Source: Myxococcales bacterium 68-20
GTDB lineage: Bacteria; Myxococcota_A; Polyangia; Polyangiales; Polyangiaceae
Length of the DNA: 64,000 nucleotides
Assembly: GCA_001899635.1 (NCBI GenBank)
Contig: MKVQ01000048.1
Coordinates: 124,001 to 188,000, forward strand
Direction: 5' to 3'
The notes below the pieces were generated by a model. That model saw only the letters and a list, made by a program, of their open reading frames with translations. It was not told where the DNA came from and searched no databases. Of this stretch, positions 26,528-30,230 are shown one piece after another; positions within the stretch are counted from its first letter, which is position 1, and every line of letters begins with the position of its first letter. Both the position numbers and the translations under genes were made by a program.

Positions 26528-27082
26528 ATGCGCATTTCGACGATCGCCCTCGCCGCGACCCTGATGCTCGCGCTCGCGGCGTGCAACAACGGCTCGAAGA
26601 ACACGGCTCCGGCGACGACGAGCGAGCCCTCACCTGTCGCTTCCACCGGCACCGCGGCTGGGGCGCTGCGGCTCGGTGCGCCGATCGAAGCGTCAGCACA
26701 GAGCGTCGTCCTCTCGGACATCGCCAAATCGCCCAGCGCCTACGTCGGCAAGACGTTCACCACGACCGGCACCGTGACGGCGGTCTGCCAGCACAAGGGA
26801 TGCTGGATGGAGATCAAGGACGACGCGAGCGAGGCGCACATCAAGATGGCCGGGCACGCGTTCTTCGTCCCGACCACGGCCTCGGGTCGGAAGGCACGTG
26901 TCCTCGCAAAGCTCGTGAAGGCCGAGAACCAGGGCATGTGCGAGGGTGAGGGCCATGAAGGAATGGCCGCTGCCGGCAACGGCGCAGGTGAGAAGCGGGG
27001 CTGCCGCGCCGAGGCCGAGGCTCAGCTGGGTCGCCCGCTCGCGAAGCTCGAGCTCGTCGCCGACGGCGTCGAGCTGATGTGA
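26528..27082 (+). CDS. DUF4920-like lipoprotein
   Basis: The 184-residue protein has a lipobox (LMLALAACNNG), then a domain with the segment VVLSDIAKSPSAYVGKTFTTTG, VTAVCQHKGCWMEIKD and a later GHAFFVPTTASGRKARV, which match my memory of DUF4920. The two cysteines of CQHKGC and further Cys residues in a His/Glu/Gly-rich insert (MCEGEGHEGM) could bind metal; that is inference. ATG 26528 is selected for the signal peptide. It converges on the kinase gene with only 20 bases between stops. Confidence 0.78.
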   Translation: MRISTIALAATLMLALAACNNGSKNTAPATTSEPSPVASTGTAAGALRLGAPIEASAQSVVLSDIAKSPSAYVGKTFTTTGTVTAVCQHKGCWMEIKDDASEAHIKMAGHAFFVPTTASGRKARVLAKLVKAENQGMCEGEGHEGMAAAGNGAGEKRGCRAEAEAQLGRPLAKLELVADGVELM

Positions 27083-27102: not shown

Positions 27103-28842
27103 TCAGCGGCGGATCACGCGCCCCTTGCCGACGATGCTCGGCGCCTTCGGTAGCTGCGTCCCTTCGAGCGTCAACGTCACCGCTCCGACGAGAGACACGT
27201 CTCCGAGCACACGGCAGCGACGCAGCGTGAGCTCGCTCTGGCCAATCACCAGCACCGAGCGCCGGCCGTCGATGACACAGTCCTCGAGCGTCGCCTTGCA
27301 CTCCCCGCCGATCGTCACGGCCGCTTGGTCGGGTATCTCCGGGTTGGAGCGGTAGTGTCCGCCGCGCCGGTGCTCGACATCAACACCGCCGCAGAAGAGC
27401 GACTCGACCACGTCCTCCGCAGGCACCCTCGCATGGCTCGCCGTCGGGGCTGCGGCGCGAGGCCTCTCGTCCGGACCAGGGAGCAGCGGCTCGTCGGGCG
27501 GGCTCACCTTCGCGGACGTGCTGGTCGCGCTCGACTCCAGTACGCTCGACTCGTCCGGGGCGCTCGGAGGGCTGGCCGCGCTCGAGTCCACCGCGCTCGA
27601 CTCGTCCGGGGCGCTCGGAGGGCTGGTCAGACCTCGACGCGCGACGACGGCGATCGTCGATGCAGCGACGAGCGCCGTGACGCCGACGCCCGCGGCGACG
27701 AAGACCCCCGAGCCACGCCGCGGTGGAGAGGCTTGCGCCGGACGAGCACCGATCCCGGTCGGGCCCGAGCTCGATCCGAACGCCGGCCACGGACCGGATG
27801 GGAACGGCCCCGGGCTTCCGGCCGGTGGCGAGCTCCGCGCCAGGCCTTCGAGGAGCACGAGGCCATGATGGACGTCGGCGGCCGACGCCGGACGTGCGTT
27901 CGGGTCCTTGGCGAGGAGCGCCTCGATGACACGAATGAACGCCTCGGGGATCCCTCGCGTCAGCATCCTCAGATCGGGCGGAGCGTGATCGACGATCCTC
28001 ACCCAGACGGTGAAGAGGTCCTCACCCTGGAACGGCCTCACGCCGGAGACGGCCTCGAAGAAGACGACGCCGAGGGCGAAAAGGTCGGCGCGCGCATCGA
28101 CGCTCCTCGGATCCTTCACCTGCTCGGGTGCCATGTAGAAGGGCGTCCCGAGCACGGCCTGAGACGCCGTACGCTCGAGACCGTCGCTCACACGAACGAG
28201 CCCGAAGTCGAGGAGCTTCGCGTTCTCGACGCGACCGCCGGGCAAGAACACGTTTCGTGGACCAAGATCGCGATGGACTGCACCGAGCGCGTGCGCATGA
28301 GCGAGCGCCGCGGTGAGACGGAGCCCGAGGATCCGGACCGCCTGCCACGGGAGTGGCCCCTTACGCAGGCACTGCTCGAGGTCCTCACCGTCGAGCCACT
28401 CCATCGCGAGGTACATCCCGTTCGGGGTCTCGCCGTGGCCGACGTAGCGAACGATACCTGGATGAGCGAGCCGGGCGAGCGTCTCGACTTCGCGCCCGAA
28501 GCGCGCGCGCCAGCCGGGATCGGTCACGTACTTGAGCGCGACGACCTCTCTCGTCCGAACGTCGACGGCGCGGTACACCGTACCCGCGGATCCACGTCCG
28601 ACCTCGCGCTCGATCCGATACGGCCCTGCGTGTGTGAGGCCAGCGCTGCCCTCGGCGATCGGCATCCGCTCCGTGTCCACCGCGCCGCCGGACTCGTCGC
28701 CCTCCACCTTGGCGAGCTCAGCGACGAGCTCCCGACACGCGTCGCACGACTCGATGTGGCGCTCGACGCGCGCCCGGGCCGTGGACGAAAGCCTCCCGTC
28801 CAGGAGCTCGAGGGCGCTGTTCTCGTCGAGGCAATGCGACAT
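27103..28842 (-). CDS. Ser/Thr protein kinase with N-terminal anti-sigma-type zinc finger and C-terminal beta-helix-like domain
   Basis: The 579-residue protein starts with a zf-HC2-like finger (residues 1-45, HIESCDACRELV). The kinase domain (about 75-340) has the P-loop VGRGSAGTVYRA, Lys104 in VVALKYV, DFG at 212-214, and the catalytic loop HRDLGPRN at 190-197, where the usual Lys after HRDL is Gly194. A Pro/Ser-rich linker, one membrane helix (about 380-402), another linker with a 51-bp tandem repeat, and a C-terminal right-handed beta-helix-like segment (about 475-579: GECKATLEDCVIDGRRSVLVIG) follow. It faces a sigma-like gene across 91 bases. The Lys to Gly change could lower or alter activity. 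Confidence 0.88.
   Translation of the reverse strand: MSHCLDENSALELLDGRLSSTARARVERHIESCDACRELVAELAKVEGDESGGAVDTERMPIAEGSAGLTHAGPYRIEREVGRGSAGTVYRAVDVRTREVVALKYVTDPGWRARFGREVETLARLAHPGIVRYVGHGETPNGMYLAMEWLDGEDLEQCLRKGPLPWQAVRILGLRLTAALAHAHALGAVHRDLGPRNVFLPGGRVENAKLLDFGLVRVSDGLERTASQAVLGTPFYMAPEQVKDPRSVDARADLFALGVVFFEAVSGVRPFQGEDLFTVWVRIVDHAPPDLRMLTRGIPEAFIRVIEALLAKDPNARPASAADVHHGLVLLEGLARSSPPAGSPGPFPSGPWPAFGSSSGPTGIGARPAQASPPRRGSGVFVAAGVGVTALVAASTIAVVARRGLTSPPSAPDESSAVDSSAASPPSAPDESSVLESSATSTSAKVSPPDEPLLPGPDERPRAAAPTASHARVPAEDVVESLFCGGVDVEHRRGGHYRSNPEIPDQAAVTIGGECKATLEDCVIDGRRSVLVIGQSELTLRRCRVLGDVSLVGAVTLTLEGTQLPKAPSIVGKGRVIRR
27543..27626. repeat. Tandem repeat (period 51 bp) inside the kinase linker
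   Basis: A 33-base identical segment starting CGCTCGACTCGTCCGGGGCG occurs at 27543 and again at 27594. It encodes the repeated Pro/Ser/Asp motif SPPSAPDESS in the extracytoplasmic linker of the kinase. Likely a length-variable region. Confidence 0.7.
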
Positions 28843-28933
28843 GACGGGTTGTCCGAGGCCTAGCCTACCGGCGCGGTGGCACGCCGTGATAGCGTCTGAC
28901 GCCCAAAACGCGGCACCTTCTCGCCACGCTCCG
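28843..28933. promoter_or_regulatory. Short divergent region between kinase and sigma-like gene
   Basis: Only 91 bases separate the two start codons, so the promoters must overlap or one gene must be transcribed from within the other. AGGCCTAGCCT at about 28857 is a short inverted repeat. No firm promoter box. Confidence 0.35.
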
Positions 28934-29752
28934 ATGAACCTCGACGAATTCGTCTCGACAGCGAGAGCGGCCTGGCCGGCGTGGCCGGGCTCGGATCCCG
29001 AGGCGTTCGCTCGCTTCGTCGAGGAGCTGCACGCGAACGCAGAAGACAAGGCGCCGCTGGACTCGTTGCACGCCGCCGACCTTTGGCTGGCGTTCCACGC
29101 GGGCCGCGGGCTCGCCCCCGCCATCGCCGCGCTCGAGGCGAGCTGCTTCGCCGACCTGACTCACGTCCTCCGAGCACGTCGCGCGGAGCCGGCTCAGGCC
29201 GAAGAGGCCGTGCAGCGGCTCCGCCATCGACTCCTCGTCGCCGACCCCGGACAGCGCGCGCGCATCCTGACGTACGCCGGCCGGGGCGAGCTCCGTGCCT
29301 GGGTGCGCGTCGCAGCCGTGCGCGGATGGCTCAACATGAAGCGCGAGGCGCCGCTCGGCGGCAGCGGCCCGAGCGTCGAAGACGCCCTCGTCACCGAGGC
29401 GACGAGCGATCTCGAGCTCGAGCTGCTGAAGGGCAAGTACCGCGAGCTGTTCCGCCGCGTCTTCCTCGAGGCGGTCGACGCTCTCGCGCCGGGCACGCGC
29501 CTCCTCCTCAAGCTCCACTACCTCGATCGTCTCTCGATGGAGGAGGTCGGCAAGGTACTCGGCGTTCATCGGCTCACCGTCCTGAGGCGCCTCGAGCGCG
29601 CACGCCACGAGCTCTCCGAAGGAACGAAGGAGCGCCTCGAGCAGGAGCTGCGGCTCGCGCCTCCGGAGGTCGAGAGCCTGCTCCGGTTGATCCAGAGCCG
29701 GCTCGATGTGAGCTTGCAGCACGCCCTCGCAGAGCGAAGCAGCGCGGGCTGA
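28934..29752 (+). CDS. Sigma-70-like transcription factor paired with the kinase
   Basis: This 272-residue protein has an N-terminal helical region, a region-2-like segment (RARILTYAGRGELRAWVRVAAVRGWLNM read across about 108-137) and a C-terminal region-4 helix-turn-helix (LLLKLHYLDRLSMEEVGKVL, then GVHRLTVLRRLERARHEL). Such atypical sigma-like proteins often lie beside Ser/Thr kinases in Polyangiales; that is from memory. It probably redirects RNA polymerase or binds DNA directly. It is divergent from the kinase whose N-terminus resembles an anti-sigma zinc finger, which suggests regulation between the two. ATG 28934 gives the start with the first convincing helix. Confidence 0.78.
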   Translation: MNLDEFVSTARAAWPAWPGSDPEAFARFVEELHANAEDKAPLDSLHAADLWLAFHAGRGLAPAIAALEASCFADLTHVLRARRAEPAQAEEAVQRLRHRLLVADPGQRARILTYAGRGELRAWVRVAAVRGWLNMKREAPLGGSGPSVEDALVTEATSDLELELLKGKYRELFRRVFLEAVDALAPGTRLLLKLHYLDRLSMEEVGKVLGVHRLTVLRRLERARHELSEGTKERLEQELRLAPPEVESLLRLIQSRLDVSLQHALAERSSAG

Positions 29753-29810: not shown

Positions 29811-30230
29811 TCACACGAAGTGAAGCACGCCGTAGACGAGCGACATCACGATCGCGAGGCCGCCGAGCGGGACCTGGAAGGCGACGAGCTTCGAGCGAAT
29901 CGCATCGCCCTTCGCGATCGCTGTCGCGTTGCCACGGAAGACGTACGTCGAGATGAGACCGAAGCCGAGGAGGAGACCGACGGCGAAGTCGGCGACGCCG
30001 GAGAGCGCCCAGAACGCGAAGACGATGGGATGGCTTCCGAGCATCCCGAGGTTGAGGACGCACTGGATCAGCTCCCACGCGCCCCAGCCGAACATCGTGA
30101 GCCCGATCCAGCCCTGATACTTCGCGAGCGTCGCGAGCTTCTCGGCGGCCTGCGCGGAGCGACCGACGAGGAGAGAGGACATCGCCAAGAGCCCGCCCGC
30201 AATACCGATGACCATCGACAGAAGAAACAT
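29811..30230 (-). CDS. Small integral membrane protein with about four helices
   Basis: The 139-residue protein has hydrophobic helices at about 2-22 (LLSMVIGIAGGLLAMSSLLV), 38-58, 67-95 and 115-137. It starts at ATG 30230 after GAGGGA. No catalytic motif or family recognised. It is likely an inner-membrane protein of unknown role. Convergent with the sigma-like gene through the hairpin at 29772-29801. Confidence 0.68.
   Translation of the reverse strand: MFLLSMVIGIAGGLLAMSSLLVGRSAQAAEKLATLAKYQGWIGLTMFGWGAWELIQCVLNLGMLGSHPIVFAFWALSGVADFAVGLLLGFGLISTYVFRGNATAIAKGDAIRSKLVAFQVPLGGLAIVMSLVYGVLHFV

Follow-up and report, generated by a model that had tools for sequence, protein, structure and literature searches.

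A membrane kinase with an anti-sigma-type zinc finger beside a gmx1 sigma factor gene in a myxobacterium: a possible sigma/anti-sigma switch

Can a receptor kinase and an anti-sigma factor be one and the same protein? The question is raised by a pair of divergent genes in a 64,000-nucleotide stretch of Myxococcales bacterium 68-20 (contig MKVQ01000048.1, positions 124,001 to 188,000, assembly GCA_001899635.1), referred to below as the window; the host genome comprises 11.9 Mb in 52 contigs. The first gene, P0001, encodes a chain in which a ZAS finger is followed by a protein kinase domain, a transmembrane helix and a beta domain, and the second, P0002, encodes a sigma factor. P0001 begins with an ATG at 28842 and contains no internal stop, P0002 begins with an ATG at 28934, and the two start codons are separated by 91 bp. 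A first-pass annotation, made from the sequence alone, had seen here a sigma-like gene facing a one-chain sensor, kinase and anti-sigma device. Its sigma gene is confirmed, and the device is partly borne out: the type of finger, the conservation of the pair and a fixed glycine in the catalytic loop speak for it, but its glycan sensor finds no support. We give roughly even chances to a sigma/anti-sigma switch in which a membrane anti-sigma factor controls release of the sigma factor through a built-in kinase.

The anti-sigma part of this reading begins at the N-terminus of P0001. The motif HIESCDAC provides H29, C33 and C36, with C4 as the fourth ligand, and Pfam zf-HC2 matches at 26.2 bits (cut-off 22.2), in agreement with the HxxxCxxC finger that the first-pass annotation had placed there. 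In ChrR, the fourth zinc ligand lies about 25 residues upstream of Hx3Cx2C. The pattern [CH]-x24-H-x3-C-x2-C is found in one of the 342 open reading frames of the window (stop to stop, at least 100 amino acids), namely P0001, and the equivalents of its four ligands are invariant in 25 of 25 aligned fingers, a selection from the 47 zinc-finger kinases of the sigma loci described below. Searched against solved structures, the finger profile matches RslA (3hug, 8e-6) and DdvA (8rlz, 2.4e-5), followed more weakly by RsiW (0.01) and ChrR (0.03-0.04), the sole match to anything else being a cytochrome construct at E 0.43. The profile also matches 8rot (1.7e-4), a DdvA-like N-terminus on a CHAT-domain protein; a like finger is thus joined to other effector domains as well. 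Modelled from the single sequence with AlphaFold2, residues 1-73 form three helices (7-14, 20-32 and 34-48) with a predicted local distance difference test score (pLDDT) of 76, and the first twelve Foldseek ranks of this model are all anti-sigma proteins, with a best E of 0.087 and none below 0.001. The ratio of nonsynonymous to synonymous substitution rates (dN/dS) of the finger is 0.05-0.32 against five orthologs. By its ligands, profile matches and modelled fold, the P0001 finger is of the anti-sigma kind. In the same genome, nine zf-HC2 matches are found among the 150 of 344 candidates that were scored, of which three are zinc-finger kinases of this kind and four lie directly behind sigma matches. 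A fourth zinc-finger kinase of this genome (C5), whose finger was seen by reading, is absent from the nine.

The partner of this kinase belongs to a defined family. P0002 matches TIGR03001, 'Myxococcales family 1' (gmx1), at 195.6 bits and passes the curated cut-off of 154.6. Among 108 family genomes, its orthologs are 87-88% identical in G059, G058, G054 and G055, 82% in G056 and 73% in G041. A kinase ortholog stands divergently beside the sigma ortholog in G054, G056, G058 and G059, and in G055 the two orthologs lie at the ends of two contigs. In G041, the contig stops 62 bp upstream of the sigma ortholog and no HRDxGPxN loop was found in the genome. A kinase with the loop HRD[LI]GPRN is kept in five relatives, all of the same genus as the window.

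Conservation of the arrangement extends beyond these orthologs. It was followed over 66 gmx1 sigma loci, consisting of the window, five paralogs from its own genome and 60 loci from relatives, orthologs included; the 60 are the best-scoring loci, down to about 121 bits, rather than a random draw. In 39 of the 66, a kinase has its finger encoded no more than 700 bp from the sigma gene, either divergently (32) or downstream on the same strand (7). When all orientations are counted, a zinc-finger kinase gene is a near neighbour of the sigma gene in 47 loci. The additions are L103, two finger proteins truncated at contig ends after the first part of a kinase (L135 and L141), and five loci in which the kinase gene either converges on the sigma gene or lies upstream of it, with edges 11-320 bp apart (L116, L121, L140, L146 and L148). 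One further locus, L113, has a finger without a visible kinase. Among 25 non-redundant pairs taken from the 39, the distances between sigma factors are correlated both with those between fingers (r 0.42, Mantel p 2e-4) and with those between kinases (r 0.40, p 2e-4); shared ancestry can account for part of this.

Another genus appears to hold the same chain in split form. Two of its genomes, G009 and G010, carry a gmx1 sigma gene 41-42% identical to P0002, and beside it (L102 and L106) a finger-transmembrane-beta protein without a kinase; in the one tested, that of L102, Pfam finds zf-HC2 and no kinase. On another contig, G010 encodes a kinase-transmembrane-beta protein with the loop HRDVGPRN, no finger and the same C-terminal beta domain. 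The same kinase runs off a contig end in G009, a genome that has the beta domain a second time on yet another contig. Compared with the window, this arrangement indicates that finger, kinase and sensor exist both fused and apart, through either fusion or fission. On a tree of kinase domains, the eight GPRN kinases group together (support 93/87, 94% of bootstrap trees), on a long branch to G009/G010 (1.31) and with a bootstrap that had not settled, so a single origin of these kinases is only likely. A single origin of all zinc-finger kinases was rejected on the same tree of 120 kinase domains, where they make up 41 rows with ten label changes; since they are not one clade, finger and kinase have probably been combined or parted more than once.

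The kinase domain itself (Pkinase, 148.1 bits) retains Lys104, HRD, Asn197, DFG and the APE of GTPFYMAPE, and thus bears the Hanks-type marks except for the DLKPxN loop, in place of which it reads DLGPRN. The first-pass annotation had pointed to this loop, HRDLGPRN, and its numbering proves right: the motif starts at residue 190, putting Gly194 and Arg196 two and four residues after the Asp of HRD (D+2 and D+4). Ser/Thr kinases are marked by DLKPEN, tyrosine kinases by DLAARN or DLRAAN; the kinases of myxobacteria are described as mostly of the Lys-loop type (PMC2887360). DLGPRN is not a tyrosine-kinase loop, having only the Arg in common with DLAARN, and the best library matches of the domain are Ser/Thr kinases. 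The glycine is fixed, as the alignment proposed at first pass now reveals. HRD[LI]GPRN occurs in all six genomes, the window's own included, that have both orthologs, and kinase-domain dN/dS is 0.10-0.22 against five orthologs, about as strong a conservation as that of the finger. By comparison, the beta domain gives 0.35-0.65, and the linkers are in parts higher still; beyond residue 339, four orthologs were compared. Glycine in six genomes together with this purifying selection means that the change from Lys to Gly is neither error nor decay, and a sequencing error or pseudogene is ruled out.

How special the loop is can be judged from its relatives. The 47 zinc-finger kinases of the sigma loci have Lys at D+2 in 42 cases (including L134, which reads HHDFKPSN) and Gly in five, all from the window clade, to which the G055 kinase adds a sixth. 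Across the 108 genomes, 13 loops match HRDxGPxN: six are those of the window clade, two are the HRDVGPRN loops of G009 and G010, and at D+4 the remaining five, one of which has HSD for HRD, carry A, N, Q or S. Loss of the lysine as such is ordinary, however, being seen in 725 of 3294 loops (22%) from 25 family genomes, G001-G025; these loops are motif matches not individually confirmed as kinases, and a reversed-pattern control gave three in the 25 genomes. Lys loss was accordingly set aside as the surprising feature. Arg at D+4, counted by hand from the loop listing of the same genomes, is found in 11 of 2569 loops with Lys and in 38 of 725 without, or in 20 of 707 when one repeated G012 loop is counted once (p 2.8e-7 against 11/2569). 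As most Lys-less loops have no Arg, the coupling is only partial. The repeated loop, HRDMQPRN, occurs 19 times over many contigs of G012, which reflects either an expanded kinase family or an artefact of assembly. What is rare in P0001, as far as these loops indicate, is Gly together with an Arg at D+4, the place of the tyrosine-kinase Arg. That Arg, in the motif AAR, bonds the substrate tyrosine in tyrosine kinases (PMC4771162). A Thr in the P+1 loop is a Ser/Thr kinase feature (PMC6213207), and the GTPFYMAPE of P0001 has this Thr, so that a Ser/Thr kinase is expected. P0001 is probably an active kinase that targets Ser/Thr, in which Arg196 partly makes up for the missing loop lysine.

The presumed outside domain of the chain is less conserved. 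The last 118 residues of P0001 are mostly beta in a single-sequence AlphaFold2 model (pLDDT 71), which agrees with the beta part of the beta-helix-like domain proposed at first pass; 'beta-helix' itself is still a guess, as Foldseek returns no significant match to the model (best E 0.30) and Pfam is likewise empty there. Nothing in these searches points to glycans, and a glycan-binding beta-helix is therefore unsupported. A family model of the domain (A4) finds, at E < 1e-28 in the 108 genomes with at most 47 candidates scored per genome, only five window-clade kinases and four frames of G009/G010. The 14 weaker matches elsewhere (2.5e-6 to 9e-4), two of which are in G000 and G054, may simply reflect beta repeats that look alike.

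If the pair is a sigma/anti-sigma switch, the ZAS finger would tether the gmx1 sigma factor to the membrane until the beta domain outside receives a signal that turns on the kinase. Phosphorylation, whether of finger, linker or sigma factor, would then set the sigma factor free to bind RNA polymerase, for which it would need no modification. Sigma binding, kinase activity, the direction of control and the signal are in each case what we infer from the comparisons above. Phosphorylation-activated sigma factors such as EcfP are described as lacking the acidic residues of region 2.2 (PMC8999054, PMC8103513). Asp or Glu is present three residues before the conserved Gln of this region (Q-3) in 65 of the 66 gmx1 sigma factors and at Q-4 in 45, with P0002 reading QAEE. 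Retention of these residues favours sequestration by the finger, with the kinase controlling release.

Several observations weigh against such a switch. Known complexes of class I anti-sigma domains (ASDI) have a fourth helix that binds sigma region 2 and blocks it (PMC7406223), and no such helix is seen in P0001, where residues 49-73 are low-confidence coil in the single-sequence model. Neither a zinc-finger kinase nor a finger is found in the DNA read at 13 of the 66 sigma loci, three of them at contig ends, and at L119, L130 and L136 the zinc-finger kinase is 1.5-2.9 kb off. The near-equal correlations of kinase and finger with the sigma factor give the finger no special standing. In G041, two zinc-finger kinases (L189 and L193) have no gmx1 sigma gene in the DNA examined, so the finger-kinase fusion is not always tied to one. 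In G054, a 4.2-Mb relative, the kinase ortholog (L098, kinase from 8102) stops at residue 339, lacks the transmembrane helix and beta domain and is apparently a soluble finger-kinase; membrane sensing is thus not always kept. Some of these points could instead favour control like that of PknT/EcfP or PknS/EcfK, in which phosphorylation activates the sigma factor and the finger merely docks it to the kinase. A kinase gene beside the sigma gene, as at the window locus and most others, is a hallmark of the extracytoplasmic function (ECF) group ECF43 (PMC13147305, PMC8999054), EcfK has phosphosites in the sigma2-sigma4 linker as well, and a charge next to the phosphosite is kept in some ECF43 members (PMC13147305). 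The apparent lack of helix 4 and the kinase correlation fit this scheme as well. It is opposed by region 2.2, in which gmx1 sigma factors mostly do not have the uncharged residues that replace DxxD in ECF43, and by the two genomes in which a kinase-less finger protein stands beside the sigma gene. Charge restoration of the EcfP type is hence disfavoured, and we regard activation by phosphorylation as possible but rather unlikely.

A specific form of the switch joins the finger to the unusual loop: the anti-sigma factor would be gated within a single chain by a kinase that phosphorylates its own finger or the bound sigma factor, its catalytic charge having shifted from the D+2 lysine to a D+4 arginine in convergence with tyrosine kinases, perhaps with dual or tyrosine specificity. 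This version is unlikely in its entirety. The opposite reading of the loop makes P0001 a pseudokinase, in which Lys loss ended phosphotransfer and the kinase fold serves as a scaffold or allosteric relay from sensor to finger. Fixation of Gly194 in the clade and the kinase-less version would suit such a protein, but the other catalytic residues are retained, the domain is conserved about as well as the finger, and Lys-less loops are common in the family. Tyrosine kinases, moreover, function without Lys at D+2. Their motif is documented (PMC4771162), and a pseudokinase is in our view quite improbable. Least probable of all is an ordinary receptor kinase that neighbours a sigma gene by chance and whose finger has another role, for instance in dimerisation. 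The G041 kinases and the scatter of zinc-finger kinases over the tree are what chance might produce; the recurrence of the neighbourhood in 47 of 66 loci speaks against it, as does the presence of the same finger on a protein that lacks a kinase and adjoins the sigma gene.

The features of the locus are collected in Table 1. The intergenic block is conserved in four of the five rows of alignment A5, with G056 as the exception. Similar sites number 58 across the genome against 68 in a reversed control, and with no excess a regulon read from this block was dropped. All six orthologous loci (L096-L101) retain, next to the sigma gene, DNA matching the small membrane protein gene downstream of P0002; in G056 this counterpart (86%) has diverged less than the kinase-sigma block (74%). 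At the other side, a lipoprotein-like DUF4920 protein (26528-27079) adjoins the 3' end of the kinase gene; its gene has no nucleotide match in L097, L098, L100 or L216, and L096 reaches a contig edge there.

Table 1. Features of the kinase-sigma locus, in window coordinates
Feature	Coordinates	Strand	Evidence
P0001, membrane kinase of 579 amino acids, zinc finger of anti-sigma type at N-terminus	27103..28842	-	translation; Pkinase 148.1 bits and zf-HC2 26.2 bits; orthologs
ZAS / zf-HC2 domain, residues 1-45, ligands C4, H29, C33, C36	28708..28842	-	alignment, PDB profile matches, three-helix model, Foldseek
Protein kinase domain, about residues 73-330	27853..28626	-	Pfam, loop position, tree, dN/dS
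Catalytic loop codons H190-N197 (HRDLGPRN)	28252..28275	-	translation; same loop type in six genomes
Predicted transmembrane helix, best 19-residue stretch 382-400	27643..27699	-	Kyte-Doolittle mean 2.17
C-terminal domain, largely beta, residues 481-579, presumed to be an extracytoplasmic sensor	27106..27402	-	single-sequence AlphaFold2; family model A4
P0002, sigma-70 factor of NCBIfam TIGR03001 (Sig-70_gmx1), 272 amino acids	28934..29752	+	195.6 bits against cut-off 154.6; orthologs
Intergenic conserved stretch, possible promoter	28861..28893	.	alignment A5, single copy in window
Small membrane protein, convergent with sigma gene	29814..30230	-	nucleotide synteny; sub-threshold DUF2243 match only

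Sigma/anti-sigma pairs, kinase-sigma pairs and the family TIGR03001 are already known. In the literature searched, which left some work on ECF evolution and classification outside its scope, no description of an anti-sigma finger fused to a kinase was found. Sequestration by an anti-sigma factor and activation by a kinase are counted as separate controls of ECF sigma factors (PMC8103513). If the proposed switch is real, both would be present in one chain, and relatives that lack the kinase or the finger would illustrate the passage from one type of control to the other. Myxobacterial kinases, of which the window's own genome has at least 150 by Pfam match (150 of 238 candidates scored), would also be linked directly to transcription. 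For the role of the conserved catalytic lysine, the Gly/Arg loop offers a clean test.

Known systems resemble the window pair in part. Like the zinc-containing class I anti-sigma factors ChrR, RslA, RsiW and DdvA (ZAS/ASDI), P0001 has a three-helix finger with Hx3Cx2C and a gene beside a sigma gene, often with one transmembrane helix; in contrast to them, it carries a whole Hanks-type kinase between finger and transmembrane helix, and helix 4 is not seen. The ECF43 sigma factors with Hanks kinases (EcfP/PknT and EcfK/PknS) share the adjoining kinase gene and the receptor type of the kinase, whereas the window kinase has a finger and its sigma factor is a TIGR03001 member with the acidic residues of region 2.2. 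The word zinc does not occur in the available text of the EcfK/PknS paper (PMC13147305). Eukaryotic tyrosine kinases (HRDLAARN) likewise have no Lys at D+2 and an Arg at D+4 (PMC4771162, PMC2887360), but P0001 keeps Pro at D+3 and the Ser/Thr-type Thr of the P+1 loop. In Mycobacterium, PknB is a Ser/Thr kinase that acts on the sigma/anti-sigma pair SigH and RshA, and its phosphorylation of a separate anti-sigma factor (PMC8999054) is a precedent for the proposed switch; kinase and anti-sigma factor are two proteins there and one chain in P0001.

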